Positions 6,823-22,878 of a DNA stretch of 64,000 nucleotides are shown here, in pieces (position 1 is the stretch's first letter; each line of letters begins with the position of its first letter). Below the pieces are notes generated by a model. It saw nothing but the letters and a program-made list of their open reading frames with translations. It was not told the origin of the DNA and did no database searches. Source of the stretch: Streptomyces rimosus (GTDB lineage: Bacteria > Actinomycetota > Actinomycetes > Streptomycetales > Streptomycetaceae). A program made the translations under genes and the position numbers. The stretch spans positions 8,869,001 through 8,933,000 of the forward strand of contig NZ_CP023688.1 of the NCBI RefSeq assembly GCF_008704655.1, given 5' to 3'.

Positions 6823-7671
6823 TCACTCGTAGCGCGCGACGAGTGCTGCGGCGTCCTCGGCATCGAGGCCGACCCCGAACTCCTCACTCAGCACGACGGG
6901 CAGTTCCTTCGCCGCCACCTGACGTCTGTCCGTCGAGAGATCCGGGAGATACGTGGTGAGTTGGGTGTGGTGCAGAACGAGCCGCCGGTCGGCTGCGGAC
7001 TTCTGGACCAGCAGCGTGCCGTGGAAGGGCGACAGCGGGTGCGTGGAGGTGAAGTGGCTGGTCACGGTGAAGTCGATGGGGAAGCGCGGCTCGGTTCCGA
7101 TGGCGTACAGGTCGAACCAGCCGTCCTGCCGCAGCCGCCGCAGCACCAGCGGGCCCTGCGTGCCCGGCGTCGGGCCCTCCTCGCGCGCCAGGGTGTACGT
7201 CCAGCCGCCCTGCCGCAAGATCTCGCCGTCCCGCAACCGCAGGGGAGCGCGGGGGCTTTCGGCGCCGAAGCCGACGTCGGTGAACCACTCCGCGCCGTCG
7301 AGTTCCACCCGCAGCGACGCGTGGGTGGCCGGGCGGGTGCGGGGCTCGTGCATGCGTACGCGCGAGGCGGTCGCCGTGAAGGTGAAGCCGATCGCTTCCA
7401 GCGCCGCGGCGTACAGAAGCGTGTGCTCGCAGCAGGTGCCGCCGCGCGGGCGCCGGACCATTTTCGCCTGGAGGGATTCCACGTCGAGCCGGACCGTCCG
7501 GCCCAGGACGACTTCCAGGTTCTCGAAGGGGAGCGCGGTGAGGTGCGCGGCGTGCAGCGCGGTCAGCACGTCCAGCGTCGGTGCGCGTTCGCCCGCGTAC
7601 CCGATGCGTGCCAGATAGGCATCGAGGTCCAGCCGCTCCCCGCCCCACACGGAGCTCTCCGGGCTGCCCAC
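6823..7671 (-). CDS. nat: Arylamine N-acetyltransferase
   Basis: The 282-residue protein has the NAT catalytic triad in order: Cys80 in RGGTCCE, His117 in THASL and Asp132 in TDVGFG. LPFENL near residue 48 is another family hallmark. NATs move acetyl groups from acetyl-CoA to aromatic amines and hydrazines; relatives close amide bonds in ansamycins. The GTG at 7671 is taken as start because GAGGAGG lies directly before it and the length then fits the family. The gene follows an XRE regulator by 37 bp and probably belongs to its operon. Confidence 0.9.
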   Translation of the reverse strand: MGSPESSVWGGERLDLDAYLARIGYAGERAPTLDVLTALHAAHLTALPFENLEVVLGRTVRLDVESLQAKMVRRPRGGTCCEHTLLYAAALEAIGFTFTATASRVRMHEPRTRPATHASLRVELDGAEWFTDVGFGAESPRAPLRLRDGEILRQGGWTYTLAREEGPTPGTQGPLVLRRLRQDGWFDLYAIGTEPRFPIDFTVTSHFTSTHPLSPFHGTLLVQKSAADRRLVLHHTQLTTYLPDLSTDRRQVAAKELPVVLSEEFGVGLDAEDAAALVARYE

Positions 7672-7708
7672 GGTCCTCCTCGACGTTCGGTCCCGTACGA
7701 ACCGTTCA

Positions 7709-8515
7709 TCAGACCTCTTCCGGCCCCGCGTACAGCACCGCGTGGGGGTGGTGGCAGACCGGGCACGAGGTCCCTTCCAGTACCTGGGAGAACTTGTACC
7801 GGCTGAGCTTCCCGCAGGACCGGCACCGGGCGGTCCAGGGCGTGTGGCGCCCGGGGAAGGGCTCACAGGGAAGGAGGCCGGCCTGCCGCATCAGCGCCGC
7901 CGCTCTGTCCAGGGAGGTCGTGCGGCGCTGACCGGCCCGCGCCGCAGGTCTCGGCGACCGCTCCTCGTGGTGACCGGCCCGGCGCCACGCCTGCTCCCAC
8001 GCCGGGAAGTCCTCCTCCGCGACTTCGCAGGCGATCAGGTAGGCGTAGAGCTGGTGGAGCGAGGAGAGCGTCTGCTTGCGTTCGCGGATGCGCCAGGCGG
8101 ACATCCGCGAGAGCGGCGCGTACGTCCGGGCCAGCCGCTCCGCCCGCGCCTCCATCGTCCGCAGCGACGGGGCGCCGTCGTCCTCCCAGGCCCGCCGCAG
8201 GACCGCCGCCAGGTCCCCGGGAGTACGGACCAGGCTCAGCAGCGGCGCTTCCGTACGGCGGGTCCGCCCCGGCCGCCCGGCCTTGCGCCACAGGTCCTCC
8301 GCCGTGTCGAGGTCCATACCGCAGACCGCGGCGATGTCCCGGATCACCGGCCACGGCGGCCTGATCCGGCCGGCTTCCGCCCGCTGGACCGTCGTGAGCG
8401 ACCGGCCGATCTTGTGCGCGAGTTCCGGCCGGGACAGGTCGCGCCGGGAACGGGCCCGGCGCAGCTCCAGCGCGAGCCGGCCCGCCCCGTGGTTCGGCGT
8501 CAGGACCGGCGCCAT
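7709..8515 (-). CDS. XRE-family regulator with C-terminal zinc ribbon
   Basis: The 268-residue protein starts with a helix-turn-helix of the Cro/C1 type (LRRARSRRDLSRPELAHKIG onward, reading through SLTTVQRAEAGR). A helical middle follows, then near the C-terminus two Cys pairs, CRSC and CPVCHH, about 15 residues apart, which form a zinc-ribbon-like knuckle. The start at 8515 is preferred because GGGGG precedes it; an ATG at 8539 is also in frame but lacks a ribosome site. It sits between a small membrane protein and the N-acetyltransferase, so it may control that operon. Confidence 0.75.
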   Translation of the reverse strand: MAPVLTPNHGAGRLALELRRARSRRDLSRPELAHKIGRSLTTVQRAEAGRIRPPWPVIRDIAAVCGMDLDTAEDLWRKAGRPGRTRRTEAPLLSLVRTPGDLAAVLRRAWEDDGAPSLRTMEARAERLARTYAPLSRMSAWRIRERKQTLSSLHQLYAYLIACEVAEEDFPAWEQAWRRAGHHEERSPRPAARAGQRRTTSLDRAAALMRQAGLLPCEPFPGRHTPWTARCRSCGKLSRYKFSQVLEGTSCPVCHHPHAVLYAGPEEV

Positions 8516-8548
8516 CGGGCGCCCCCGTCGGCGCGGCATCGCCGGGCA

Positions 8549-9256: not shown

Positions 9257-10660
9257 TTACCCCGCGTCGTCCGAAAGAGCCGGATGTACGGGGCACTTCG
9301 CCTCCTGGACCGGCGCCCGCCGCTTCGGCGGTTGCTTGCGGGCCACCGCGACGACCTGCTTGCCGGGGATGAGGGTGGCGTGCCACATGCGCTGGGCCTC
9401 CGGCGCGGGGTCGGCGGGGGCCAGATGGACGTGCCGGAGCACCTCGCGAGTGATGATCTTCATCTCCAGCGTGGCGAGTTGGGCGCCGACGCAGTAACGG
9501 CGGCCGCCGCCGAACGGCAGGAACGACTTCTGCGCCGCCTTGGCGCCCTCACCGAGGAAGCGTTCCGGCCGGAACTCCCCGGCGTCCGGGTACACCGCAC
9601 GGTCCTGGAGGATCAGCGAGAACATCGGGATGGCCACCCAGCCGGCCGGCACCTCGAACCCACCGACCCGCAACGGCTTGTCCAGCAGCCGCCCCATGCC
9701 GAAGATCACCGGACGGGACCGCAGCGCCTCCTTGACGACCGCGTCGAGGTAGGTGTCGTCCTCGCCCTGCTCCACCTCCTCCTGGAGCCGCGCGAGCACC
9801 CGCGGATTGCGCATCAGCCGCTCGAAGGTCCATGACAGGCCGGTCGCCGTGGTCTCCAGGCCGGCCTCCAGCAGGGTGAGCAGTTCGTCGCGGATCTCCT
9901 GGTCGCTGAGCGGGCGGCCCTGGTCGTCCCGGGCGCGGAGCAGCCGCCCCAGGACGTCGTCGGCGTCCGCGTCCTCCTCGGCCCGGCGCCGGGCGATCTC
10001 GGCGAACAGGATGTGGTCCACCGTCTCGACGGCCTGCGCGGCGCGGGTCGTCGGCAGGAACGGCAGGCGCATCGCCAGCGGAGACCGTTGCGCCCAGGCC
10101 CGCAGCCGGGCGGGCGTCAGGAACAGGGCGGCGGAGCCGGTGGCCTTGGACAGGTCGATGAGACCGGCCCGTAACCGGGCCCCCTGCTCGGTGTCCCGGA
10201 CCCCGAAGACCAGCCGCAGGATGACCTCCAGGGTGATGGCCTGCATGTGCTCGCGCAGGGTGAACGGCCTGCCGAGCGGCCACGTCCCGATGTCCTTCGC
10301 GGCGATCTCGGCGATCAGCTCGGGATAGTTCGCGATGGACCTGCCGTGCAGGGTGGGGCTGAGCAGCTTGCGGTGGCGCCACCATTCCTCGCCGTCGTTG
10401 GTGAGCAGCGAGTGCTGTCCGACCCACGGCACGTACCCCGCGCGCAGCGCTCCGGCGCGGTTGCCGTCGCCGTCCATACGGTAGATCTCCGCGGCCAGCT
10501 CCGCGGTCGAGACCACGACCTGGGGCGGGAAGCCGAGCAATTTCATACGGAACACCGGACCGTAGCGCCGGCGCAACGTCTCGAAGTAGCGGACCGGATC
10601 GCGCATGTGGAGGGTCTGCAGGAAGGCAGGCTGACGCGATCCGGGGGGAAGGCGAAGCAT
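9257..10660 (-). CDS. Cytochrome P450 monooxygenase
   Basis: The 467-residue protein has the I-helix EAGLETTATG, the K-helix ExxR in KEALR, and the haem loop FGGGRRYCVG with the thiolate Cys near residue 390. No membrane anchor is evident. The ATG at 10660 is favoured because GGAGAG stands at the proper distance; ATG 10672 and an upstream codon lack this. It is transcribed away from the dikinase operon across a 350-bp region, so it may be a tailoring enzyme of that cluster (inference from position). No ferredoxin gene is adjacent. Confidence 0.9.
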   Translation of the reverse strand: MLRLPPGSRQPAFLQTLHMRDPVRYFETLRRRYGPVFRMKLLGFPPQVVVSTAELAAEIYRMDGDGNRAGALRAGYVPWVGQHSLLTNDGEEWWRHRKLLSPTLHGRSIANYPELIAEIAAKDIGTWPLGRPFTLREHMQAITLEVILRLVFGVRDTEQGARLRAGLIDLSKATGSAALFLTPARLRAWAQRSPLAMRLPFLPTTRAAQAVETVDHILFAEIARRRAEEDADADDVLGRLLRARDDQGRPLSDQEIRDELLTLLEAGLETTATGLSWTFERLMRNPRVLARLQEEVEQGEDDTYLDAVVKEALRSRPVIFGMGRLLDKPLRVGGFEVPAGWVAIPMFSLILQDRAVYPDAGEFRPERFLGEGAKAAQKSFLPFGGGRRYCVGAQLATLEMKIITREVLRHVHLAPADPAPEAQRMWHATLIPGKQVVAVARKQPPKRRAPVQEAKCPVHPALSDDAG

Positions 10661-11010
10661 ATTTCTCTCCATACTCCAGCGTCTGTCGAGTTGTGAACCT
10701 TCGGTCAGGCTGCGGTTCGCCAGGGATTCGCCGATGGTCGGGGAGAACAATCAGCCGGAAGCAGGAGGGACGGGCCCGGCAGGGACAGTAGATGCCCGCC
10801 GCCCGGCCGCCGCTGAGCAATTCAACGGTCGCTAGGGAAAACCTTAGTTGCGCGGGCAGTCCGGCGGAGGCCGTCCGGGGCGCTGCTACGCTCGGCGAAA
10901 TATTCACCGAATTGCCGCTCGGACGTGAATGACCGTTCGGGCAAAGCGGTGTCCGCACTGCCACGCGGAGCGTGGTTCAGGCCATGGCGTATCGGAAAGC
11001 TTGGGGTTTC
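10661..11010. promoter_or_regulatory. Divergent promoter region between P450 and the dikinase operon
   Basis: The 350-bp spacer must contain promoters for both directions. Its centre is less GC-rich than its flanks. It holds an imperfect dyad CTAGGG-AAAA-CCTTAG near 10832-10847 and separated TTGCC/GGCAA half-sites near 10911-10945. No convincing -35/-10 pair or butyrolactone-receptor box could be assigned by eye. Confidence 0.4.
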
Positions 11011-13749
11011 ATGCGAGCCATCATCGCCGAAAGTCCGCCAGGTGAGGTCGCGCGCGCAGCGGGCGGCAAAGGGGCAAATCTTTTTGCCCTTTCGGGCAAC
11101 GGGATCGACGTACCGCGATGGGCGGTGGTGGGTCTCGACGTCTTCCAGGAGTGCATCGCCGCGCTCGATGAGTCGGGGCGGATCGGGAAGCTGCTCGACG
11201 AGGTCACCCCGGACTCGGCGGAACGCGTCTCCGGGCAGCTGGCCGGCCTCGTCGAGGCCGCGGAGCTGTCCGGGCGGGCGGCGTCGGTCATCGCGGACGC
11301 CTACACGCGGGCGGGAGGCGGCCGGGTCGCGGTCCGCTCCTCCGGCGCCGAGGAGGACGGCGCGCGGCTCTCCTTCGCCGGGCAGTTCGCCACCTCCCTG
11401 AACGTCACCGGGCTCGCCGAGGTCGAGGCGCACGTCAAGAAGTGCTGGGCGTCGGCCTTCTCCGAACGATTACTGCTCTACCGGCTGCACCACGGGCTGC
11501 CGCTGCACGGCGCCGGACTCGCCGTCGTCGTACAGGAGATGGTGGCCGCCGAGCGCAGCGGCGTGCTGTTCACCGCCGACCCGGTGAGCGGCGACCGGCG
11601 CCGCTACGTGGTCAGTTCGGTCTACGGGCTGGGCGAGGGCCTGGTCTCGGGGGCGGTCGACGCCGACACCGTGACGCTCGACGCCGCCACCGGCGAGGTG
11701 GCCGAAACCGTGCTGGGCGACAAGCGGGAGCGCTACCACGCGCCCGCGTCGGGCGCCGGGTGCCAGATCAGCGAAGTGCCGCCGGCCGAGCGGGAGAAGC
11801 TGTCGCTGACACCGAAGGAACTGGCGCGCCTGCACGAGGCCGGGAGGCGCGTCCAAGCGGTCTTCGGCACCCCGCAGGACATCGAGTGGGCGTTCGCGGG
11901 CGATGTCCTGTGGATTCTCCAGGCCCGCCCCATCACCGCGCTGCCGGAGTACGCCGCACCGCCTGACGGCGCGGCGGAACCCGCCGACGGCGAAATCCGG
12001 ATCTGGGACAACGCCAACATCGTCGAAAGCTTCTCCGGCATCGTCTCGCCGTTGACCTTCAGTTTCGCGGCCCATGTTTACGGCAAGGTCTACGAGAACT
12101 ATGCGCGGGCCCTTCGCGTGCCCCGGGCCGGGCTGCGCGAGATCGAGGAATGGGCCCCGCAGATGCTCGGCTATTTCCACGGCCGGGTGTACTACAACTT
12201 GTTCAACTGGTACCGGATGGTGCGCATCGCGCCCCTGTACAAGCTCAACAGAAAAGTCCTGGAAATCGCCATCGGCGTCGAGGAGGGACTCGACGACGAA
12301 ACGGCGGAGGCGATCCGTCCGTACACCGTCTCGGCGTCCCCGCGCGACCGGCTGGCCCGCGCCCGTACGGTGGCGGCCTTCGTCCACCGGTTCCTCACCA
12401 TGAACCGCTCGGTCGAGCGTTTCATGGCGTACTTCTACGCGGCGTACCGGGAATTCGACAACGTCGACTACGACGCGCTGGACGGCCAGGACGTCTACCG
12501 GCGTTTTCGCGCCCTGGAAAAGGACCTGCTGGAGAAGTGGGGTCCGATGCAGACCCTGGACGCGGCGATCCTGTGGTCCATCGGCGGGCTCGCCCTGCTC
12601 AACCGGCGCTGGCTGCCCGATGCCCCCGAATGGCTCACCTGGAGCGCCGCGAGCCCGGGCCCGCGCGTGGAGTCCATCGAACCCGCCCGCGCGCTGGCGC
12701 GCCTCGCGGTCACCGTCCGCGCGGATGCCGCGCTGGAGCGCCTCATCCGGGAGACCCCGGCCGAGGACACCTTCGCGGCCCTGCGCGGGAACGGCCACAC
12801 CGAATTCCTCGCGGCGGTGGATGCGTACATCGCCGCGTACGGCTACCGCAGCCTCGACGAACTCAAGCTCGAAGTCCCCGACCTGCGGGAAGACCCCTCG
12901 GCTCTGTTCGCCCTGGTACGCACCGCGCTGTCCGAGGTCGACGCCGATCCCGGCCGGAAGGCCGACGCCTACCTCGACGCCCACCTGCGCGGGCCGCGCC
13001 GGCTGGTCTACGACGTCGTCCGCCGCAAGGCACAGAGCTCCCTGTACAACCGGGAGCGGCTGCGGTTCTGCCGTACCCGCGCGTTCGGCTCGGCGAAGCG
13101 GATGCTGCGGGCCATGGGGCGCGACCTCGCCCGGACGCGGGCGATCGAGCACTGGAACGACGTCTTCTTCCTGCGCCTGGAGGAGCTGCGCGGCGTCTAC
13201 GAGGGCACGACCGGAAACACCGGCCTGCGCGGCCTGGTGGAGCTGCGCAAGCGCCAGCAGGCGCAGGACGGGCAGCTGTCCGCACCGTCCCGCTTCGTCA
13301 CGCGCGGTGCGCCCTACCGGCGGGGCAACCTGGAGCAGGCCGGCTTCACGACGGGCCCGGCGGCACGTACGGGCGTCCAGGAGCTGCGCGGCACCCCGTG
13401 CTGCCCCGGTGTGGTGGAGGCCCCCGCCGTGGTCACGGACACCCCCGTGGACGTGAACGGCGGCGTGCTGGTGACCTACCGCACCGACCCGGGCTGGGTC
13501 GCCGCCCTGCCGTCCGCCTCGGCGCTCGTCATCGAGCGGGGCAGCCCGCTGACGCATGTGGCGATCGTCGCCCGGGAGCTGGGCATTCCGACGGTCGTCC
13601 AGGTCAAGGGCCTGATGGCGGAGCTGGAGACCGGCATGCGCCTGCGGGTGGACGGAGCGACGGGGTCGGTACGGATTCTGGCCGACGCCCCGGACGCGGC
13701 GGGCGGCGCGGCCGGACCCGAGGCCGCGAAGGACCCGGCGGGTGCGTAG
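11011..13749 (+). CDS. PEP synthase / rifampin phosphotransferase-type dikinase
   Basis: The 912-residue protein has the PEP-utilising dikinase layout. An N-terminal ATP-grasp part carries GGKGANL near residue 22, VRSSGAEEDG, and the segments MVAAERSGVLFTADPVSG and WILQARPIT. A large substrate domain contains NIVESFSGIVSPLTF. The C-terminal swivel domain has the phosphohistidine loop LTHVAIVAREL with His849. Length and order match rifampin phosphotransferases and related single-chain dikinases, which split ATP into AMP, phosphate and a phosphorylated product. The substrate here is open. It opens the operon; the ATG at 11011 has GGGG upstream, and an earlier ATG at 10984 lacks a ribosome site. 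Confidence 0.85.
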   Translation: MRAIIAESPPGEVARAAGGKGANLFALSGNGIDVPRWAVVGLDVFQECIAALDESGRIGKLLDEVTPDSAERVSGQLAGLVEAAELSGRAASVIADAYTRAGGGRVAVRSSGAEEDGARLSFAGQFATSLNVTGLAEVEAHVKKCWASAFSERLLLYRLHHGLPLHGAGLAVVVQEMVAAERSGVLFTADPVSGDRRRYVVSSVYGLGEGLVSGAVDADTVTLDAATGEVAETVLGDKRERYHAPASGAGCQISEVPPAEREKLSLTPKELARLHEAGRRVQAVFGTPQDIEWAFAGDVLWILQARPITALPEYAAPPDGAAEPADGEIRIWDNANIVESFSGIVSPLTFSFAAHVYGKVYENYARALRVPRAGLREIEEWAPQMLGYFHGRVYYNLFNWYRMVRIAPLYKLNRKVLEIAIGVEEGLDDETAEAIRPYTVSASPRDRLARARTVAAFVHRFLTMNRSVERFMAYFYAAYREFDNVDYDALDGQDVYRRFRALEKDLLEKWGPMQTLDAAILWSIGGLALLNRRWLPDAPEWLTWSAASPGPRVESIEPARALARLAVTVRADAALERLIRETPAEDTFAALRGNGHTEFLAAVDAYIAAYGYRSLDELKLEVPDLREDPSALFALVRTALSEVDADPGRKADAYLDAHLRGPRRLVYDVVRRKAQSSLYNRERLRFCRTRAFGSAKRMLRAMGRDLARTRAIEHWNDVFFLRLEELRGVYEGTTGNTGLRGLVELRKRQQAQDGQLSAPSRFVTRGAPYRRGNLEQAGFTTGPAARTGVQELRGTPCCPGVVEAPAVVTDTPVDVNGGVLVTYRTDPGWVAALPSASALVIERGSPLTHVAIVARELGIPTVVQVKGLMAELETGMRLRVDGATGSVRILADAPDAAGGAAGPEAAKDPAGA

Positions 13750-13812
13750 CGCGCCGGCCGTCCGGCCCCCGCGGCACCGCCCCATCCCGCAAGCCACGAC
13801 CAGGAGGCCCGT

Positions 13813-15459
13813 GTGATCCTCAGCGAGGAATACCTGCAGAACCTGTTGGACAAGACGCTGCCGCAGATCCGCGCCACGGACGGCTGCGCCGTGGTGCTGG
13901 AAGGATCGATCGCCGAGGGCTTCGGCAACTCCTCGTCCGACATCGACTTCCTCCTGATCGCCGACGGTGACGCCGACCTGCCGACCATGCCGTCGCTGCT
14001 GTTCGTGGATGGGCGGCGGGTCGAGGTCCGCACCCGTTCCGTACGCCAGATCGCGGAGCAGTTCGCCGCGGTCACGGCCGCCGCCGCCAACGGTCCGGGC
14101 GCGGAGGACCTGCTGAACCGCTGCCAGCGGCTGCTGCGCAGCTTCCCGCTGCGCGAACCGGAGTTGGTGGCGAAGGTCAAGGACCTGATGTCCTTCGACG
14201 ACTTCCGGACCACCGTGGGCGAGTGGTGGGCGCGCGCCGCCCGCCAGTCGATCCGGTACGCGCTCGCCCTGCGGCAGCTCGGCCAGGAGCAGGAGGCCGC
14301 GGCCTGGACCGAGGCCGGGCTGCTCCAGGCCGTGAAGTCCTGGGCCGCGGGCCGGGGAGAAACCTATCTGGAGCCCAAGTGGCTGCCCGAGCAGCTGGGC
14401 CGGATCGGCGACCACCCGCCGGCCGCCCGGTACCTGACGCTCGCCTCACCGTCCGCCTCCGGCCTCGGCGCCGACGCGTACGTCACCGAAGGCGTCCGGC
14501 TCGCGGCGGATCTCGGTGTCACGGGCGCCACCCCCGAAGCCGGACGGATCACCGTGGCCGGGGCCGGGGTCACCACCTGGCAGACCGGTGAGCGCGTGCA
14601 CGTCGTACGCGGCCGGCAGGACGTGTTCGTCCTCGGGGACCGGGCGGCACGGGCCTGGCGCTCCCTCGTCTTCGGCCGGACCCTGGAACAGACGCTGGCC
14701 GCCGCGGACGCGGCCGGTGCGCCGCAGGCGGGCCCGCTGATCGCCGAATTCCTGCGGTACGGACTGGTGCGGGTGGCCTGGCAGGGAGACGGGCCGATCG
14801 TGCCCGGCCTGCCGCTGGCCGCCCCCGCGGGCGATGTCACACCGCCGCCGAGCACCGCACGGCCCATCATCGCCGTGGGCGGCGCGACGGCCGGCGGCGC
14901 GGAGGCGATCGACCTCCTGCCGGTGCCCGCCCGCCGGTTCAGCGCCGCCGCGATGACCCTGGTGTGGTCCAACGTCCTGGTGGAGAACGCCCGCGAGGAC
15001 CTCGTCGGCGCCCTCGACCGCGGCCAGTGGAGCGTCGCGCAGCTCAGCGCCCTGCGGATGCTGCGGTTCGCCCTGCGCGGGGTGCTCAGTTCGTACGCCG
15101 TCAACCCGCTGCCGCCGGACTCCGAGGTCGTTCGCCGGCTGTCGCTTCTGCCGGACGGGGACGACCTCGACGCCATCCGGGCGCGGGCCGGACAGCTCGA
15201 CACCCTCACGATCGCCTCCGGCCCTCAAGGGGACGCCGCGCTGACGGCGCTGGACGACTTCGTGGCCCTGGTCCGCCGGGCCACGGGCGCGGACCGCTTC
15301 CCGTCCTCCTTCGACTCCCCGGACGCATGGCGGCAGACCTTGGAGGCCGGTAACGACTGGCTGCGCCTGGGCGCACACCTCGACGCGGACCTGCCCATCG
15401 ACGAGGCGGGCGATCTGCTGTCCAGCGGAGGGGCGCAGCCCCACGCCGCCTCGGCCTGA
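13813..15459 (+). CDS. Nucleotidyltransferase-domain protein with possible PqqD-like segment
   Basis: The 548-residue protein starts at GTG with AGGAGG before it. Near the N-terminus is a polymerase-beta-type nucleotidyltransferase motif, GSIAEGFGNSSSDIDF (residues 31-46): Gly-Ser followed by Asp43-x-Asp45. A helical part follows. Residues about 262-320 read like a PqqD-type winged helix: a strand, LGDRAARAWRSL, RTLEQTL, LIAEFLRYGLV. The C-terminal third is not recognised. It is the second gene of the operon. The NTase motif is clear, the PqqD resemblance is by eye only, and the transferred nucleotide and acceptor are unknown. Confidence 0.7.
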   Translation: MILSEEYLQNLLDKTLPQIRATDGCAVVLEGSIAEGFGNSSSDIDFLLIADGDADLPTMPSLLFVDGRRVEVRTRSVRQIAEQFAAVTAAAANGPGAEDLLNRCQRLLRSFPLREPELVAKVKDLMSFDDFRTTVGEWWARAARQSIRYALALRQLGQEQEAAAWTEAGLLQAVKSWAAGRGETYLEPKWLPEQLGRIGDHPPAARYLTLASPSASGLGADAYVTEGVRLAADLGVTGATPEAGRITVAGAGVTTWQTGERVHVVRGRQDVFVLGDRAARAWRSLVFGRTLEQTLAAADAAGAPQAGPLIAEFLRYGLVRVAWQGDGPIVPGLPLAAPAGDVTPPPSTARPIIAVGGATAGGAEAIDLLPVPARRFSAAAMTLVWSNVLVENAREDLVGALDRGQWSVAQLSALRMLRFALRGVLSSYAVNPLPPDSEVVRRLSLLPDGDDLDAIRARAGQLDTLTIASGPQGDAALTALDDFVALVRRATGADRFPSSFDSPDAWRQTLEAGNDWLRLGAHLDADLPIDEAGDLLSSGGAQPHAASA

Positions 15460-15469
15460 CGGAGGAACA

Positions 15470-15547
15470 GTGACATCACCCATCAACCCGCCCCGCACGA
15501 CCGGGGCACGGCGCACGGCGGAACAGCGACAGGAGGCGGCTCGATGA
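15470..15547 (+). CDS. Possible 25-residue peptide or coupling ORF
   Basis: A GTG directly behind GGAGGAACA opens a 25-codon frame (MTSPINPPRTTGARR, continuing TAEQRQEAAR). Its TGA overlaps the next gene's ATG as ATGA. This same overlap is used at other junctions of the operon, which argues the ORF is translated. It is very basic and lacks cysteines. It could serve only for translational coupling, or be a small precursor peptide. No homologue is known to me. Confidence 0.4.
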   Translation: MTSPINPPRTTGARRTAEQRQEAAR

Positions 15548-16635
15548 CACGGCGACTGAAGATCCTGGTGACCGGCGCGTCCGGGCTGGTCGGCGCGGAG
15601 GTCACCGCCCGGCTCGCGGCGGCCGGGCACGAGGTCACCGCCGTGGTCCACCGGCAGCAGACGCTGGTGCGCAACGACGGCACCCCGCTGGACCCCGCCA
15701 CCGTCCGGTGCCTGCCCGCCGACGTGACCCGGCCCCGCCTCGGCCTGACCGAGGCCGGTTACGCGGAACTGGCCGGCGGCGGGATCGACCGCATCGTGCA
15801 CTGTGCCGCGATCACCGACTTCGGCCGTCCCGAGGAGGACTACCGCACGGTCAACGTCGACGGCACCGCGCACCTCATCGAGCTGGCCCGCGCCGGCGGC
15901 GCCGGCCTGGTGCACGTGGGCACCGCGTACGTCTGCGGCGAGCGCGACGGGCTGATCCGCGAGACGGAGCTGGACCAGGGCCAGCGGCTCGCCAACGGCT
16001 ACGAGGCCAGCAAGCTGCGGGCCGAGACGCTGGTGCACAAGGCACGGGCCGACGGGGTGCGCGCCGCGGTGGTGCGTCCCAGCATCGTCGTCGGCGACGA
16101 GCACACCGGCGTGGTGCGCGACTACAAGAACATCTACGTCATCCTCAAGCTGACCACCGAGGGCAAGGTCCGCTCCGTCCCCGGCCTGTACGAGGCGCGC
16201 CTGGACCTGGTGCCGGTCGACTACGTGGCGGACGTCATCACCCGGGTCACCGAGCGGTTCGACGAGGCGGAGGGCCGTACCTTCCACGCGGCGGGAGCGC
16301 CGCTGACCCTGCGGGACTTCTCCGACGTGATGGCCGAGTACCCCTCGTTCCACGTGCCGCGGTTCGTCCCCCCGACGAGCTTCGACGCCCAGCGCCTGCC
16401 CACCCGCGAACGCCGCTACTACGAGCGGATCGTCTCGCTGTACGAGAGCTACTTCCGGCGCCGGATGACGTTCGACGCCTCCCACACCGCGGCGCTGGGC
16501 GTGCGCGCGACGCCCGCGGACGGGCCGGACTTCCTGCGCAAGCTGATCAACCACTGCCTGGAATCGGGCTACCTGGGCGCCCCGCCGGCCGGCACCGGCC
16601 CGGCCGCCGACGACGCGAACGGAGCCGGCCGATGA
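15544..16635 (+). CDS. Extended SDR, NAD-epimerase / thioester-reductase-like
   Basis: The 363-residue protein has the Rossmann motif TGASGLVG at residues 10-17 and the catalytic YEASK. The segments GLVHVGTAYVCG, VVRPSIVVGD and LDLVPVDYVAD resemble male-sterility/thioester-reductase (NAD_binding_4) proteins, which reduce acyl thioesters to aldehydes or alcohols, more than sugar epimerases. GGAGG lies upstream. The stop overlaps the next ATG by four bases. In this cluster a carboxyl or acyl reduction is plausible, but a sugar epimerase role cannot be excluded. Confidence 0.75.
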   Translation: MTRRLKILVTGASGLVGAEVTARLAAAGHEVTAVVHRQQTLVRNDGTPLDPATVRCLPADVTRPRLGLTEAGYAELAGGGIDRIVHCAAITDFGRPEEDYRTVNVDGTAHLIELARAGGAGLVHVGTAYVCGERDGLIRETELDQGQRLANGYEASKLRAETLVHKARADGVRAAVVRPSIVVGDEHTGVVRDYKNIYVILKLTTEGKVRSVPGLYEARLDLVPVDYVADVITRVTERFDEAEGRTFHAAGAPLTLRDFSDVMAEYPSFHVPRFVPPTSFDAQRLPTRERRYYERIVSLYESYFRRRMTFDASHTAALGVRATPADGPDFLRKLINHCLESGYLGAPPAGTGPAADDANGAGR

Positions 16636-17627
16636 CCTGGGACACCGCGGACCCGCGCCCCTTCGGCGACGACCTTTCCCCCGCCCTCAGCTGCACTTCG
16701 CGCAAACGCGCCCTGTTCGCCGCGGACACCTACTTCCTGGAGAGCTACGAACAGCTCGGCACCCTCACCGCCGACCCGGACGGCTTCCTCCACCGGCACG
16801 CCGCGCTGCTGCTCAAACCCGACGCGGTGGTCAGCAGGCAGATACCGGTGACGGTCGACTGGCTGGCCCGCAACGGACTGCGGATCGTGGCCGCCGAGCG
16901 CACCCGGCTCACCCGCACCGCCGTACGGTCGCTGTGGTACTACCAGTGGAACCTGGCCACACCGCAACGGCGCCGCCTCGCCGACCTGTTCATGGACTCC
17001 TGCGACGCGGTGGTGCTCGTCGTACGCCCGGAGGCGGACCAGACCGGCGCCGCGCCCGCGTCGGTCGTCATGACCGAGCGCAAAGGCCCGACCGACCCCC
17101 AGGCCCGGATCCCCGGCCAGCTGCGGTACGAAATCGGCCGCTACAGCTATCTGCTCAACCTCGTGCACACCCCCGACGAACCCGCCGACGTGGCACGGGA
17201 GTTGGGCATCCACTTCGACACCGCCCGGCGGGAGCGGGTCTACGCCGACGCGCTGGCGGGCGACGACCGGTCGGCGCGGGCGCGCGAACTGGCCGACCAA
17301 CTGCACGCGGAGGTACCCCGGCGGGACCTCACCTTCGAGCCCGCGGCGGAACGCCTCAAGGCGGCCGTGGCGGAAGCGGAGGAGGCGGCACAGCCCGGCG
17401 CGGTCCGGGACGAACTGCGCGCGGCCCGGCAGGCCGCCCGGTCGCCCGAGGGATACCGGCGGCTGCTGGAGGCCGTCTGGCGGGCCGGGCTGCCGCTCGA
17501 CCCCTGGGACGTGGTGATTGTCGGCACCCACGTCCTGCCGATGAAGCGCAAGGGACTGGCGCCCGTACTCGACGGGGTCGGCGTGCACGACTGGCAGCGC
17601 CACATGGCGCGGCTCGCGGCCAGGTGA
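16632..17627 (+). CDS. NDK-like protein with C-terminal extension
   Basis: Residues about 55-196 of 331 match the nucleoside diphosphate kinase pattern: HAALLLKPDAV (59-66 core), NGLRIVAAE, and then LLNLVHTPDEPADVARELGIHF. The last aligns with NIVHGSDSxxSAxREIxxWF of NDKs, so the phosphorylated His is retained as His179, but Gly-Ser after it is Thr-Pro. NDKs are about 140 residues long; here an N-terminal arm and a helical C-terminal half are added, the latter ending VIVGTHVLPMKRKG. Start ATG overlaps the previous stop. Nucleotide kinase activity or a related phosphotransfer is inferred; no intact family example like this is known to me. Confidence 0.65.
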   Translation: MTWDTADPRPFGDDLSPALSCTSRKRALFAADTYFLESYEQLGTLTADPDGFLHRHAALLLKPDAVVSRQIPVTVDWLARNGLRIVAAERTRLTRTAVRSLWYYQWNLATPQRRRLADLFMDSCDAVVLVVRPEADQTGAAPASVVMTERKGPTDPQARIPGQLRYEIGRYSYLLNLVHTPDEPADVARELGIHFDTARRERVYADALAGDDRSARARELADQLHAEVPRRDLTFEPAAERLKAAVAEAEEAAQPGAVRDELRAARQAARSPEGYRRLLEAVWRAGLPLDPWDVVIVGTHVLPMKRKGLAPVLDGVGVHDWQRHMARLAAR

Positions 17628-17641
17628 CACGGAGGAGAAGC

Positions 17642-18628
17642 ATGGACACGGTGGAATTCAGCCGCACGGTGCCCCGGGAGCTCGTCCATCGGTCGAGCAT
17701 CACGGAGGTGCTGGTCACCGGCGCACTCGCCCGGGACGAGGACACCCTCGACGTCGGGGTGCAGATCCCCCGCTCGCACGCCTTCTACCGGGATTCGGCG
17801 GGCTGCGGGCACCTCTACGACCCGATGGTGCTGGTGGAAGCGGCCCGGCAGACGCTCATCATGCTGGGACACGACCTGTTCGGCATGCCCTTCGGCACGA
17901 AGTTCATCCTGCGCGAGATCGCCCTGCACGAGGCGGACCCGGCCGCGCTCGCGGTCAGCGTCGTCCCCACCGAAGTGGTGTTGCGCTGCCACATCCTGCG
18001 TCGCTTCCGCGACCGTACGGGCAGCGTACGGGGAGCGCGGCTGCGCTACAGCGCGATGATCGGCGACCATGTGGCGGCCACACTGGAATGCGGCATGTCC
18101 TGGGTGCCGCCGGAACAGTGGCAGACGATGCGCGAAGAGGGGCGGATCGCCCTGGGGCTGCCGCCACACCTGGGCATCCAGGCCCCCGAACCGCCGCCGC
18201 GGATCAAGGAGGCCCTGGTCGACCGCCGCGATACCGCCAACGTGGTGCTCTCCTCCTTACGCGTGTCGCCCGACGCCGCCGGTACGGGGACGGCGCGGCT
18301 CGTCGTCGACACCCGCCACCCCGTGCTGTTCGACCACTACGTCGACCACGTCCCCGGCATGCTCACCCTGGAGTCGTTCCGGCAGCTGGGCATCGCCACC
18401 GCCGCCGCCACCGGCACACTGCCCTCGGCAGCGGCCCTGCTCACCGGGATCAGCGTCCGCTTCACCGCCATCGGCGAGCTGGACCTGCCGGTCACCTGCG
18501 AGAGCGTCCTGTTACAGGGCGACGGGACGCACGCCGTCCTGCACACCACCATGCGGCAGGAGGGGCGCGTCATCGCCGCCGGCGAGGTGCGCCTGACCAG
18601 GCCCGGCACGGAGGCCGGGACGCGATGA
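17642..18628 (+). CDS. AfsA/ScbA-family hotdog protein
   Basis: The 328-residue protein has two A-factor-type hotdog repeats. The first holds SHAFYRDS and DPMVLVEAARQT, the second holds HPVLFDHYVDHVPGMLTLES. AfsA proteins condense a beta-ketoacyl-ACP with dihydroxyacetone phosphate in gamma-butyrolactone signal synthesis; relatives act in butenolide and other small-molecule paths. GGAGGAG precedes the ATG. No butyrolactone receptor (ArpA/ScbR TetR type) is in the window, which is unusual for a pure signalling gene. A role inside the cluster product is therefore possible. Confidence 0.88.
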   Translation: MDTVEFSRTVPRELVHRSSITEVLVTGALARDEDTLDVGVQIPRSHAFYRDSAGCGHLYDPMVLVEAARQTLIMLGHDLFGMPFGTKFILREIALHEADPAALAVSVVPTEVVLRCHILRRFRDRTGSVRGARLRYSAMIGDHVAATLECGMSWVPPEQWQTMREEGRIALGLPPHLGIQAPEPPPRIKEALVDRRDTANVVLSSLRVSPDAAGTGTARLVVDTRHPVLFDHYVDHVPGMLTLESFRQLGIATAAATGTLPSAAALLTGISVRFTAIGELDLPVTCESVLLQGDGTHAVLHTTMRQEGRVIAAGEVRLTRPGTEAGTR

Positions 18629-19263
18629 GCGACGGCCCCGCCACCCTCGACATCGACGGGCTGCTGACCCGTACGCCCACCGTGCGCCGTCGGCTCGACC
18701 TGACCAGGCCGGTCGCCCGGCCCCTGCTCGCCCAGTGCCTCCGGCTCGCCCTGCACGCGCCCAACGGCGGGAACCGGCAGAACTGGTGGTTCCTGGTGAT
18801 CGACGATCCGGAGACGAAGGCGGGGATCGCGCAGTACTACAAGGCCGCCTCGGACGCCTATCTCGACGCCGCGCCCCCTGCGGCGATGAGCGAGCGGGCC
18901 GTGGCCGGCGTGCGCCACCTCGCCGACCACCTGCACCAGGTGCCCGCCCTCGTCCTGGCCGGCACCCGCGGGCGACTGCCCCACGACGCGCCGCTCGCCC
19001 GGCAGTCGAGCTTCTTCGGCTCCGTCTATCCGGCGGTGTGGAGCTTCATGCTCGCCGCCCGCAGCCGTGGCCTGGGCACCGCGCTGACCACGGTGCACCT
19101 CGCCCACGAACGCGAGGTCGCGGCGCTGGTCGGCATCCCGGCCGACGAGATGACCCAGGTCGCCCTGGTGGCCGTCGGACACACGACGGGGGAGTCCGGC
19201 TTCCGCCCCACCCCGCGCCAGCCGCTCGACGAGGTCGTGTCCTGGAACAGGTGGCAGCAGTGA
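18625..19263 (+). CDS. Nitroreductase-family flavoprotein
   Basis: The 212-residue protein has RRRLDLTRPV, APNGGNRQNWWFLVI (FMN-binding Asn/Arg region), AVWSFMLAARSRGLGTALTT and the ending GFRPTPRQPLDEVVSWNRW. These are the order and length of nitroreductase-like FMN oxidoreductases. Its ATG overlaps the AfsA stop (ATGA) and its stop overlaps the next GTG, so it is translationally coupled. It may oxidise or reduce an intermediate of the cluster. Confidence 0.85.
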   Translation: MSDGPATLDIDGLLTRTPTVRRRLDLTRPVARPLLAQCLRLALHAPNGGNRQNWWFLVIDDPETKAGIAQYYKAASDAYLDAAPPAAMSERAVAGVRHLADHLHQVPALVLAGTRGRLPHDAPLARQSSFFGSVYPAVWSFMLAARSRGLGTALTTVHLAHEREVAALVGIPADEMTQVALVAVGHTTGESGFRPTPRQPLDEVVSWNRWQQ

Positions 19264-20177
19264 ACACCGCGGTGAACCGCACCCCGGCCGCCGTCCGGGC
19301 GTCGGCCCGGCTGGGCCGCTTCGTCCTGCGGATGTTCCGCCCGCAGATCTATGTCACCTACGGCGTGCTGTGGACCGTGACCCTGGAGGGCACCGCCGGA
19401 GAGATCACGAAGACCGCCGCACCGTGGACGCCCACGTGGGCGACCGCGGTCCGCGCGGCGAGCGTGGTCCTGGCCCTGCTCTTCGTCCGGATGGCCGACG
19501 AGCAGAAGGACCTGGATTACGACCGGCGGCACAACCCGGACCGGCCGTTGGTGACGGGCGCCATCACGGTCGCGGAGCTGCGCGGCGCCATGGTGCTGAT
19601 CACCGTCCTCGTCGTCGCGCTCAACGCGCTGGTCTCGGCGCTGTCCGTGCTGCTGATCCTGCTCGGCCTGGCGTACACGCTGTTCCTGGCCGTGCTGGAA
19701 CGCCGGTTCCCGCGTCTCGGCGAGAATCTGGTGGCCGGTCTCCTGGTCAGTTACCCGGTACAGCTGCTCCTGTCGGTCTACCTCTACGTCTCCCTGCTGA
19801 CCGGCGGCATCGACGCCGACTGGCGGGCCGTGCCGCTACTGGCCATGTTCGCCTGCGCCTTCCTGCAGTTCGAGTTCGCGCGGAAGACCGAGTGGCGGCA
19901 GGATCCACAGGCGCGGCTGTACTCGCAGGTGTTCGGCCCGCGCGGCAGCGCCGCGATCAGCCTGGCGCTCGCCGTGGGCGCCGTGGTGCTGGGGCTCGCG
20001 CTGCTGGGCCGGGCGGGCCTGCTGCCCGCGGCCGCCCTGGTCTTCCCCGCGCTCGGCGCGTGGCGCTTCCTGCTGCGCAAGCGGCCGTCGGGGCTGATGC
20101 TCCCGGCGATGGGCTTCGTGCTCTTCTTCAACCTGCTGTGTTTCTACGGGTCCACAGCGCTCGCGATCGGACGGTGA
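19260..20177 (+). CDS. UbiA-family membrane prenyltransferase
   Basis: The 305-residue protein has about eight hydrophobic helices. The first Asp-rich motif reads RMADEQKDLDYDRRHNPDRPLVTG in pieces around residues 78-100 and fits the UbiA pattern NxxxDxxxD...NPDRPL. A second acidic loop, KTEWRQDPQARLYSQVFGPRGS in shape, lies near 220. UbiA enzymes attach a prenyl chain to an aromatic or other acceptor in the membrane. GTG overlaps the nitroreductase stop. Acceptor and donor are unknown; no prenyl diphosphate synthase is in the window. Confidence 0.82.
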   Translation: MNTAVNRTPAAVRASARLGRFVLRMFRPQIYVTYGVLWTVTLEGTAGEITKTAAPWTPTWATAVRAASVVLALLFVRMADEQKDLDYDRRHNPDRPLVTGAITVAELRGAMVLITVLVVALNALVSALSVLLILLGLAYTLFLAVLERRFPRLGENLVAGLLVSYPVQLLLSVYLYVSLLTGGIDADWRAVPLLAMFACAFLQFEFARKTEWRQDPQARLYSQVFGPRGSAAISLALAVGAVVLGLALLGRAGLLPAAALVFPALGAWRFLLRKRPSGLMLPAMGFVLFFNLLCFYGSTALAIGR

Positions 20178-20182
20178 GACGG

Positions 20183-21448
20183 ATGCAGCCGGTGATCATC
20201 GACGGGGTACGGATCTTCGACGGCACGTCGGTGCCGGGCATCGGCTCGGTGGAGTGCGCCGACGGCGTCATCACCCGCGTCGACACGGACCCGGGGTCTC
20301 GGCCGCCGTCGTCGGCCGAGGTGATCGACGGGACGGGCCGGACGCTGCTGCCGGGGCTGATCGACGCGCATACGCACGTGTTCGGCGCCGAGAGCAACCT
20401 TCAACAGGCGCTGGCCTTCGGCGTGACGACCGAACTGGACATGTTCATGGGCCCGCCGGAGGACACCAGGGCCCTGTGCCGGCTGGCCGGCGAGCGCCAC
20501 GACCTCGCCGACCTGCGCAGCGCGGGCCTGCTGGCGAGCGCGCCGGGTGGGCATCCCGCCGTCACCATGCCGACGCTGCCGACCGTCGCCGGGCCCGGGC
20601 AGGCGGATGCCTTCGTCGCCGCCCGGCAGGCGGAGGGCGCGCACTTCATCAAGATCATGGTGGATGACGGCGTGAATCACGGGAGGTCGCTGCCCGCGCT
20701 GGAACCGGCGACCGTGACGGCGCTCGCCGACGCCGCGCGCCGCCGGGGCCTGCTCAGCGTGGCCCACGTCTCCGCCGTGTGGTCCGCGCGGCGCGCCCTC
20801 GACAGCGGTGTGGACGTACTGACGCACCTCCCGCTGGAAGCGGCCCTGGACGACGCCTTCGTCCGCCGGGCCGCGGAGGCGAGGCGCGTCGTCATCCCCA
20901 CCCTGGCGATGCTGGAGGTGTCCGCGCCCCGGTCCGCCACCGGCGTCACCCGGTCTTTGGCCGACGGTCCACGGATCGCCGCCTTCCTTTCGGACCACGC
21001 CCGCGCCGCGATCACGGAAGGCCGCGAGGGCCTGTGCGTGGAACACCCCTTGCCCGCACACCGTTTCCGCCACGCCCTGTCGAGCGTGGCCCGCCTGCAC
21101 CGGGCGGGCGTGCCGGTGCTGGCCGGAACCGACGCCAACCACCGGCCGGGACGCGCCTGCCCGGTCGTCCACGGCGCCGGTCTGCACGCCGAACTGGCCC
21201 TGCTCGTCGAGGCCGGCCTGACTCCGGCCGAGGCGCTCACCGCCGCCACCGCGGCACCGGCCGCGCGCTTCGGGCTGAGCGACCGCGGGGTGATCGCGCC
21301 GGGGCGGCGCGCGGACCTCGTACTCGTCGCGGGCGACCCCACCACGGACATCACCGCCACCCGCTCGATCGAGGCGGTCTGGCGGGGCGGCGTGCGCTTC
21401 GACCGCGAGGCGTACCGCGAGCGCGTCGCGTCGCGTACGGCGGCGTGA
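20183..21448 (+). CDS. Metal-dependent amidohydrolase
   Basis: The 421-residue protein has the amidohydrolase signature: GLIDAHTHVFG with the HxH metal ligands, FIKIMVDDG (possible carboxylated Lys), AHVSAV with a further His, LTHLPLE, and AGTDANHRPG with the metal Asp. The C-terminal segment GRRADLVLVAGDP closes the family fold. ATG at 20183 is used; a GTG at 20174 overlapping the UbiA stop is an equal alternative. A cytoplasmic hydrolase (imidazolonepropionase/prolidase-like subgroup) acting on a cyclic amide, urea or ester is likely. Confidence 0.85.
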   Translation: MQPVIIDGVRIFDGTSVPGIGSVECADGVITRVDTDPGSRPPSSAEVIDGTGRTLLPGLIDAHTHVFGAESNLQQALAFGVTTELDMFMGPPEDTRALCRLAGERHDLADLRSAGLLASAPGGHPAVTMPTLPTVAGPGQADAFVAARQAEGAHFIKIMVDDGVNHGRSLPALEPATVTALADAARRRGLLSVAHVSAVWSARRALDSGVDVLTHLPLEAALDDAFVRRAAEARRVVIPTLAMLEVSAPRSATGVTRSLADGPRIAAFLSDHARAAITEGREGLCVEHPLPAHRFRHALSSVARLHRAGVPVLAGTDANHRPGRACPVVHGAGLHAELALLVEAGLTPAEALTAATAAPAARFGLSDRGVIAPGRRADLVLVAGDPTTDITATRSIEAVWRGGVRFDREAYRERVASRTAA

Positions 21449-21471
21449 GCGGGACCCGTGCGCAAGACAGC

Positions 21472-21523
21472 ACGAACGGCATGAGCGGCATCCACACGAA
21501 TCGGAGAACGAACGGCATGAGCG
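21472..21523 (+). repeat. 16-bp direct repeat covering two alternative start codons
   Basis: ACGAACGGCATGAGCG occurs at 21472-21487 and 21508-21523, 36 bp apart. Each copy contains an in-frame ATGAGC. The second copy has GGAG at good distance and is taken as the real start of the methyltransferase; the first looks like a small tandem duplication. Confidence 0.6.
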
Positions 21524-22380
21524 ACGGACCCGCACTCCTGGCCGGGGCCAGCAGTACCGCGCTGGTCGTGGGCATGGCCCGCGCCGCCGAGAGCCGACGG
21601 CCGGACCGGCTCTTCGAGGACCGCCTGGCCGGGCGGTTCCTCGACGCGGCGGGCCATGAACAGCAGGCGGTGTGGAGCGGCGGGCCGGGCGAGCGGTTCG
21701 CCGACGCCATGGGCGACTACTTCGCGCTGCGCACCCGGTACTTCGACGACTACTTCCGCCAGGCGTACGCGGCGGGCTGCTGCCAGGTGGTCGTGCTCGC
21801 GGCCGGTCTGGACACCCGCGCCTTCCGGCTGGACTGGCCGGACGAAACCCGCCTGTTCGAACTGGACCAGCCCGATGTGCTCGCCTTCAAGGAACACGTC
21901 CTGCGGGGCGAATCGCCGCGCTGCCGGCGCGAGGTGATCGCGGCGGACCTGCGCGAGGACTGGACCGTACCGCTGGCCGGGCACGGCTTCCGCACGGACG
22001 AGCCGACGGCCTGGCTGGTCGAAGGCGTACTGGTCTACCTCACCGAGGACGCGGCGGACCGTCTGCTGGGCCGGATCAGCGCGCTGTCGGCGCCGGGCAG
22101 CCACCTCGCCATGGAGCACGTCACCCGGTCGATGATCAACTCGGACCAGGCGCGGCAAGCGGCGGCGGCCTCGCCGGAAGGCGTCGTGAACCTGCTGTCC
22201 TCGCTGTGGACGAACGAGATGACGCGCCCGCCCGGCGACTGGCTCGCCTCCCACGGCTGGAGCGCCACCGAAGAGCCGCTCACCGGCCTGGCCCGGGGTC
22301 ACGCCCGGCCCGTCCCGCCGGCCTTCGACCCGGCGTCGCCGGGGACCGGGCGGGTGAGCCTGCTGTCCGCCGTCCGATGA
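21517..22380 (+). CDS. SAM-dependent methyltransferase, PPM1/TIGR00027-like
   Basis: The 287-residue protein has the marks of the leucine-carboxyl-methyltransferase-like family: ARAAESRRPDRLFEDRLA, RTRYFDDYF, VVVLAAGLDTRAFRLDWP (SAM-binding), LFELDQPDVLAFKE, and WLVEGVLVYLTEDAADRLL. Such enzymes O-methylate small acids in secondary metabolism. It is the last gene of the operon, 68 bp behind the amidohydrolase, with a small duplication at its start. It probably performs a late methylation on the cluster product (inference). Confidence 0.88.
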   Translation: MSDGPALLAGASSTALVVGMARAAESRRPDRLFEDRLAGRFLDAAGHEQQAVWSGGPGERFADAMGDYFALRTRYFDDYFRQAYAAGCCQVVVLAAGLDTRAFRLDWPDETRLFELDQPDVLAFKEHVLRGESPRCRREVIAADLREDWTVPLAGHGFRTDEPTAWLVEGVLVYLTEDAADRLLGRISALSAPGSHLAMEHVTRSMINSDQARQAAAASPEGVVNLLSSLWTNEMTRPPGDWLASHGWSATEEPLTGLARGHARPVPPAFDPASPGTGRVSLLSAVR

Positions 22381-22446: not shown

Positions 22447-22878
22447 ATGGAGCACACGGAACACATCAGACTCGGAAGCCGAGCGGAAGGCGTGAACGGA
22501 GCGGCAGGCGGCACCGGGCGGGTTCGCCGCGCCGCGCTGGCGCTCGTGGGCGCGGCCGTGCTGGCGGCCGTGACGGTGACCCCGGCCCAGGCCGAGCCCG
22601 GCGAGACCAAGACGCTGTGCCGGTCCGAGGTCACCCCGTCCGGATGGCTTGAGGTGCGCTGGGGCAAGAGCGAGGCCTGCGGGGCGACCGACATCCCCAA
22701 CATCAAGACCATCACGCAGGTGGCCGGCCTGCCGGTCGGCTCCCGGGTCGAGGTATGCGCCACCATGGTGCCGCCGGAGGGCTGGCAGCCGGTGAGCACG
22801 TCCTACAGCGTCGACTGCCGGACGAGCCTGGGCCCGGGGACGTACAACAACAGGTGGGTGCTGGAGCGGGTTTCCTGA
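22447..22878 (+). CDS. Small secreted protein of unknown function
   Basis: The 143-residue product has a charged N-terminus, a hydrophobic helix and AQA cleavage near residue 51, so it is probably Sec-exported. The mature 90 residues contain four cysteines in the segments KTLCRS, SEACGA, VEVCAT and VDCRTS, which suggests two disulphides. AGGAGGAG precedes the ATG. It follows the methyltransferase on the same strand but a hairpin stands between them. No family is recognised. It ends near a strong bidirectional terminator. Confidence 0.75.
   Translation: MEHTEHIRLGSRAEGVNGAAGGTGRVRRAALALVGAAVLAAVTVTPAQAEPGETKTLCRSEVTPSGWLEVRWGKSEACGATDIPNIKTITQVAGLPVGSRVEVCATMVPPEGWQPVSTSYSVDCRTSLGPGTYNNRWVLERVS

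Follow-up and report, generated by a model that had tools for sequence, protein, structure and literature searches.

The window, a 64,000-nucleotide stretch of the Streptomyces rimosus genome (8.869-8.933 Mb of a single 9.36-Mb contig), encodes at 9257-22380 an operon that is quite probably a variant or relative of the salinipostin (spt) pathway, the source of unusual butyrolactones that carry phosphate. Divergently from a cytochrome P450 gene runs a co-oriented series encoding a dikinase-like phosphotransferase (DIK), a nucleotidyltransferase-like protein (NT), a 25-codon open reading frame (ORF), a reductase (SDR), an NDK-like phosphotransferase, an AfsA-type synthase, a nitroreductase (NTR), a UbiA-fold protein, an amidohydrolase (AH), and a methyltransferase (MT), as listed in Table 1. 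An earlier reading made from the sequence only had taken this to be an undescribed cluster. That description no longer holds for the core, which matches a locus that fits the spt cluster; what is new is a variant without the fatty acyl-AMP ligase (FAAL), the acyl carrier protein (ACP), and the F420-dependent LLM oxidoreductase, and with NTR, AH, MT, and P450 genes.

Probable match to the salinipostin cluster

A search with the AfsA family in 354 genomes, all from the family of a Paractinoplanes relative, gave matches in 68 of them, the strongest in genome G295, which we take to be Salinispora tropica CNB-440. The G295 operon (L115/L121, at 4.71-4.73 Mb with AfsA at 4.7247 Mb) covers about 11.1 kb from DIK to AfsA, with nine genes in the order DIK, FAAL, NT, ACP, SDR, NDK-like, UbiA, F420 LLM oxidoreductase, and AfsA. 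The spt cluster of S. tropica is given, in the passages available from PMC7888443, as RS20900-RS20940 with a length of 11.1 kb. Those are nine tags if the numbering steps by five. By site, size, and gene number, the L115/L121 operon appears to fit the spt cluster of S. tropica CNB-440.

The window has six of the nine spt genes, with DIK, NT, SDR, and NDK in the same order and AfsA placed before UbiA rather than after it. Scored against G295, the window proteins reach 1039 bits for DIK, 549 for NT (50% identical to the NT of L121), 389 for SDR, 237 for NDK, 152 for UbiA, and 78 for AfsA. The AfsA-type synthase with adjacent DIK, NT, SDR, NDK-like, and UbiA homologs is thus present as in spt. 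FAAL, which in L115/L121 lies between DIK and NT, is absent from the window and has no close copy in its own genome; at the ACP site between NT and SDR the window holds only a 25-codon scar; and there is a nitroreductase in the window and no F420-dependent LLM oxidoreductase. Because three of the nine spt genes are absent, we do not file the operon as a strict spt cluster, although its mode of operation is most likely the same. The names Spt1-Spt9 are those reportedly used by Kudo et al. (2020) and Creamer et al. (2021), according to whom spt-like clusters are widespread among actinomycetes, Streptomyces among them.

Conservation of the core gene set

Relatives were collected by a search with the NDK-like family, in which 84 loci were confirmed and the best 80 kept, 78 of these being from named genomes. 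To these were added the window and six Salinispora-type loci, which are six of the seven strongest matches in the separate AfsA search, giving 85 loci. A full core, meaning DIK, NT, SDR, NDK, and UbiA close together, is found in 59 of them, ranging over Streptomyces, Mycobacterium, Nocardia, Dietzia, Kutzneria, and Salinispora-type genomes. The 26 excluded loci are 2 on short or cut contigs (L028 and L037) and 24 whose NDK-like genes are all distant or whose arrangement differs. The core gene set is conserved in an arrangement beyond chance, so that the earlier proposal of one biosynthetic operon is borne out and a chance assembly is not. Likewise, the choice of three phosphoryl and nucleotidyl enzymes as the hallmark of the cluster proved sound, the catalytic motifs of DIK, NT, SDR, NDK-like, and UbiA proteins being invariant over the 59 loci (for DIK, in the 58 with letters there).

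Among the matches listed, the nearest named relative is S. rimosus subsp. rimosus NRRL WC-3904 (L007), with an NDK 94% identical. NT was found in 19 of 392 drawn Streptomyces genomes, the window's own included, with one copy each; in the 4.6-kb stretches around it, FAAL and ACP lie on either side of NT in 4 and neither does so in 15, the window among them. A close homolog of the P450 is found in 12/59 full-core loci, which form a single clade on the tree. In Streptomyces sp. NBC_00341, an NDK-like protein with 81% identity is labelled by its source name as plasmid-borne, a hint that plasmids can carry the cluster; a plasmid collection held distant NDK-like genes only, in 9 records, all below 60% identity.

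Loss of FAAL and ACP

FAAL and ACP always go together in the 59 full-core loci: 29 have the two genes, 30 have neither, and none has just one, with presence set by score thresholds within the DNA stretches compared and with the loci not being independent. The number of changes needed on the core tree is 5 for FAAL and ACP, 6 for NTR, 1 for LLM, and 3 for AH and MT. If gained once, FAAL and ACP were lost five times, and this repeated joint loss marks a separable lipid-loading arm.

In relatives that keep the ACP, the interval between NT and SDR is filled by a gene showing the ACP serine motif (YDSLRL or similar) and called at a length of 68-113 residues; in the window, this interval is 84 bp. 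Remnants were scored by local alignment against shuffles of two-base blocks. L008 (Streptomyces sioyaensis) keeps the first ~100 bases of the ACP gene, followed by a break; its scores with three ACP genes are 109.2, 91.2, and 126.8, where shuffles reach at most 52.6, 38.8, and 39.8. L009 (S. kronopolitis) scores 79.0, 49.0, and 56.6 (maxima 38.0, 41.6, and 39.6). For the window gap, two ACP genes give 37.6 and 40.2, scores that 0/500 shuffles reach in each case (maxima 36.8 and 39.0), and the third, that of L011, gives 28.8, which 58/500 reach. For the L007 gap, shuffles reach the score in 92/500 against L011 and in 1/500 against L043. The window alone would be a weak case for an ACP scar, while together with L007-L009 it makes a good one. 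Hence the 25-codon ORF, which the earlier reading had counted as a gene and which does exist as a frame, is most likely the scar of a deleted ACP gene. The start of the ACP, with its ribosome site and first codons, and its last codons appear to remain, the latter now forming the ribosome site of SDR. A functional peptide was considered and set aside, the scar being the simpler reading.

At the FAAL site, the DIK-NT gap in L007 and L009 keeps the 3' end of FAAL, with scores of 82.4-116.4 against maxima of 55.6-71.2 in 200 shuffles. Of two FAAL genes, only one gives the window gap a score above the shuffles (38.2 vs 36.6); the other, that of L010, gives one under the shuffle maximum (26.8 vs 41.4), as it also does for the L008 gap (29.6 vs 31.0). 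FAAL does not appear to have been relocated, as the best candidate in the window's own genome has 29% identity and 56.6 bits among the 150/191 candidates that were scored. A single loss shared by the window, L007, L008, and L009 is rejected by the approximately unbiased (AU) test (p = 4.05e-5, log-likelihood 354.5 lower), run on 16/59 loci with the four-locus group set by gene content, though after a first tree. Hence there would have been at least two FAAL/ACP losses within the clade, or a transfer that splits the gene tree from the loss tree. In L014, FAAL and P450 are seen in pieces.

The SDR gene stays constrained after the loss. By a counting method that is rough at high G+C, its dN/dS is 0.22 (window vs L007), 0.42, and 0.37 for three FAAL-less pairs, and 0.43, 0.28, and 0.22 for three FAAL-bearing pairs, so SDR can do without that FAAL and ACP.

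A pathway that lost FAAL and ACP might simply stop earlier, its end product being a butyrolactone signal, phosphorylated or plain, in place of a triester. The absence of both genes in 30 of the 59 full-core loci is in line with this, and so is the window AfsA, whose two PF03756 domains and score over the NCBIfam cut-off for ScbA_BarX_GamBu (NF041195; 217.8 bits vs 200) liken it to the A-factor/ScbA/BarX butyrolactone synthases and uphold the AfsA-type condensation that had been proposed. The spt cluster itself is said to yield plain butyrolactones too, which we count in favor of such a reduction. Against it, NT, NDK, DIK, and UbiA have kept their motifs in the loci compared and show a dN/dS of 0.17-0.47 within pairs of FAAL-less loci, which means that selection still acts on the phosphate-handling steps. 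We consider this reduced pathway unlikely. The A-factor/ScbA/BarX systems are not known to us to have a dikinase, NDK-like, or nucleotidyltransferase partner. Two further AfsA loci lie outside the window in the same genome, at 2164087-2164935 and 5457354-5458121.

The phosphoryl and nucleotidyl enzymes

DIK has an ATP-grasp domain, a large middle, and a C-terminal phosphohistidine domain, with the catalytic His849 in 58/58 loci. NCBIfam PRK06241.2-2 labels it PEP synthase (1108.7 bits, cut-off 883). This function is rejected, since the PEP/pyruvate-binding TIM barrel (presumably PF02896) was not found, the search returning only PPDK_N and PEP-utilizers at E = 0.1. The nearest solved chains, 5fbs and 5hv1, are listed as PEP synthase, and we take them to be rifampin phosphotransferase (RPH). 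According to PMC4844700, RPH has a three-domain layout and phosphorylates a small molecule with ATP as the donor. DIK resembles it in having the ATP-grasp and C-terminal His domains with no PEP barrel, but is under the NCBIfam RPH cut-off (319 of 999 bits), and the substrate of DIK is surely another.

NT matches Pfam weakly, with NTP_transf_2 at 17.5 bits being below the cut-off of 21. Its motif E30 G31 S32 D43 D45 is found in 59/59 loci, and the predicted model, with a pLDDT of 89.5, has as its best PDB folds the aminoglycoside nucleotidyltransferases, weakly (best E = 2.7e-4). The family call of the earlier reading is thus supported by the motif and the predicted fold. The likeness to the aminoglycoside enzymes lies in the predicted palm and motif; TM to the best targets is 0.50-0.59 at 11-13% identity, and NT has ~300 further residues of unknown fold.

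The NDK-like protein has K62, R165, N176, and H179 in 59/59 loci, corresponding to the active-site Lys, Arg, Asn, and catalytic His, and by eye the equivalent of NDK Arg88 seems to be missing. A much stronger NDK match in the same genome (166.9 bits, at 6.23 Mb) is presumably the housekeeping copy. Distant NDK-like genes were also seen in other settings. In Photorhabdus caribbeanensis (L084:7260-13450), one is accompanied by two transketolase halves, a guanylate-kinase-like, a glutamine amidotransferase-like, and an SDR gene, possibly a further case of a mono- to triphosphate series that acts on a non-nucleoside. In Actinomadura atramentaria (L083:8375-15729), one lies with a hydrolase, a formyltransferase-like gene, an aminotransferase, a HAD hydrolase, and a DIK-like gene (968 bits), possibly another cluster with the DIK and NDK-like enzyme pair.

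FAAL and NT are in one open frame at 9/29 FAAL-bearing loci (L040, L047, L050, L051, L061, L063, L064, L067, and L068), the hosts being Kutzneria, Antrihabitans, Nocardia, Mycobacterium-type, Dietzia, and two unplaced loci from actinomycete metagenome-assembled genomes. An NDK-like protein and AfsA are in one frame in L054, L055, L062, and L066, each adjoining a DIK gene. These four are small AfsA clusters from Planosporangium and Actinocorallia in which the fusion gene is followed by DIK, and no NT match was found in the stretches of them that were examined. Pfam finds the NDK domain only in L054 (25.0 bits, below the cut-off of 27) and L055 (32.9); in L062 and L066, it is recognized by phmmer against the window NDK (162 and 179 bits). 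The catalytic His is present in 4/4, with Lys and Asn changed in L062 and L066. Fused proteins often serve one route. The fusions hence suggest that NT serves the lipid arm and NDK the lactone arm, which would tie the phosphoryl enzymes to both.

A new pathway sharing only parts with spt, as was first proposed, would be in keeping with the P450, AH, MT, and NTR genes, for which the S. tropica-type locus has no equivalents. It has to be set against six core genes held in common in nearly the same order, the half-identical NT, and the invariant motifs, and we think it very unlikely.

Reductases, UbiA, and accessory enzymes

SDR has Y153 and K157 in 59/59 loci. NTR is found in 36 loci, LLM in 10, both in 0, and neither in 13, with the NTR call in L068 being weak (120 bits) and on the opposite strand. 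It is possible that NTR stands in for the F420 LLM oxidoreductase of spt.

The UbiA protein has a model with a pLDDT of 93 that matches 4od4 and other UbiA homologs, so that the family call stands, whereas the prenyl tailoring role assigned with it need not hold for what is a core gene. Its first motif is nearly kept (D80, D84, and D88 in 59/59), and its second is E205-x-A-R-K209 (ExARK), also in 59/59. The two Asp-rich motifs of UbiA prenyltransferases, NDxxDxxxD and DxxxD, are hence not both present. In the passages available from PMC4106721, DxxxD is the second motif of prenyl-diphosphate UbiA enzymes. The motif terms did not occur in the Rv3806c paper. A meroterpenoid, with UbiA prenylating an AfsA-derived lactone, would agree with the fold and first-motif Asp residues, but given the altered second motif, the presence of UbiA in the spt-fitting locus too, and the alkyl chains that salinipostins carry according to the available parts of PMC6681047, we consider it highly improbable.

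In AH, the residues H63, H65, K157, H195, H215, and D317 are invariant in 7 aligned sequences and are presumably the ligand set of a binuclear metal site. The nearest PDB chains are the amide hydrolase LlADH, an amidohydrolase family protein, and Xaa-Pro dipeptidase. AH and MT are present together in 15 of the 59 loci and both absent in 44.

Proposed pathway and product

AfsA enzymes form a butenolide phosphate by condensation of dihydroxyacetone phosphate and a beta-keto acyl thioester. The window AfsA would do the same, after which NTR would reduce the product to butyrolactone phosphate, the step of the F420 oxidoreductase in spt. Activation of the phosphate and its esterification would fall to DIK, the NDK-like protein, and NT, and UbiA would do its part at the membrane. 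The product would by homology be a phosphodi- or triester, for example a bicyclic enol phosphate of the cyclophostin/cyclipostin/salinipostin class, which supports the earlier expectation of a phosphorylated product with possibly a nucleotide-type activation.

One scheme for the activation is a pseudo-nucleotide relay on the butyrolactone phosphate from AfsA and the reductase. DIK would add a second phosphate from ATP and the NDK-like protein a third, and NT would treat the resulting lactone triphosphate like an NTP, transferring the lactone phosphate onto an alcohol and releasing pyrophosphate. The relay fits the fusions, with NDK joined to AfsA on the lactone arm and NT joined to FAAL on the alcohol arm; we offer it as a speculative scheme that is rather unlikely to hold as drawn.

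Where spt clusters are complete, the long-chain alcohol would be provided by FAAL, ACP, and SDR. With FAAL and ACP gone in the window lineage, the ester group must come from elsewhere, and the simplest guess is a methyl ester made by the LCM-type MT, as in cyclophostin. Cyclophostin has a methoxy group on phosphorus, as stated in the available passages of PMC6681047, and this would fit the window MT. Cyclophostin and the cyclipostins, enol phosphotriesters of Streptomyces, are also alike in host genus and expected core chemistry, from which a link to the window may be proposed. A gene-cluster paper for them was not found in the open-licence literature searched, which does not show that none exists. 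A methyl ester product is a tentative suggestion. AH may hydrolyze the product, as a lactonase or phosphotriesterase, for turnover or self-protection.

Several points weigh against the spt-variant pathway proposed here. The identity of G295 as S. tropica CNB-440 is presumed, in part from locus position, and the AfsA score against that genome is low. The spt gene roles were not found in the passages available from the open-licence literature. SDR is kept without its ACP and FAAL partners, which would not be expected if it served only to make an alkyl alcohol, and in 13/59 loci both NTR and LLM are missing. MT is present in 9 FAAL-bearing loci and missing in 24 FAAL-less loci, so MT does not just take the place of the alkyl arm. 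To our knowledge, this strain has no known product.

Gene inventory and neighboring features

The named genes are all present at 9257-22380, as had been read from the sequence, each as a continuous frame with high third-position G+C. Four junctions have 4-bp overlaps (15544-15547, 16632-16635, 18625-18628, and 19260-19263), and the remaining ones have gaps of 5-68 bp. The family calls are upheld by Pfam or NCBIfam, with NT under its Pfam cut-off.

Table 1. Features of the operon region, in window coordinates
Feature	Coordinates	Strand	Support or remark
Cytochrome P450, divergent, clade-specific accessory gene	9257..10663	-	PF00067, 218 bits
DIK, dikinase-like phosphotransferase	11011..13749 (start possibly 10984)	+	PPDK_N and PEP-utilizers
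DIK-NT gap, FAAL site in relatives	13750..13812	+	Little FAAL remnant in the window
NT, nucleotidyltransferase-like, GS..DxD palm and C-terminal half of unknown fold	13813..15459	+	Motif, model
25-codon ORF, probable ACP deletion scar, carries SDR ribosome-binding site and start	15471..15547	+	
SDR, NAD(P) thioester/fatty-acyl reductase-like	15544..16635	+	PF07993 (NAD_binding_4), 137.6 bits
NDK-like phosphotransferase with C-terminal extension	16632..17627	+	PF00334, 50.1 bits
AfsA-type butyrolactone/butenolide phosphate synthase, two hotdog domains	17642..18628	+	PF03756 x2
NTR, nitroreductase/BluB-like flavoenzyme	18625..19263	+	PF00881
UbiA-fold membrane transferase, second motif altered	19260..20177	+	PF01040, 42.7 bits (cut-off 34.2)
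AH, amidohydrolase	20183..21448	+	PF01979 (Amidohydro_1)
MT, SAM-dependent O-methyltransferase, LCM/TIGR00027 family	21517..22380	+	Pfam, NCBIfam

Near the P450 side of the operon, two minus-strand frames at 6823-8539, one for an arylamine N-acetyltransferase and the other for an XRE-type HTH protein, overlap unless the N-acetyltransferase start is later; neither has a match among the relatives' loci listed. On the other side, 22447-22878 encodes a small protein that has a signal-like start but gives no match in Pfam; among the compared loci, it is matched only in the S. rimosus locus L007.

Significance

How the phosphotriester is assembled in salinipostin and in two natural organophosphates, cyclophostin and cyclipostin, was not found described in the open-licence literature, which here did not include the main spt papers. 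The family examined here splits that assembly problem into a lipid-loading arm and, as the fusions suggest, an NDK on the lactone side and an NT on the lipid side, and it offers a testable role for each enzyme. FAAL-less clusters such as that in the window should make products with another source for the ester group. Furthermore, about 5% of Streptomyces genomes (19/392 drawn) are flagged as candidate makers.

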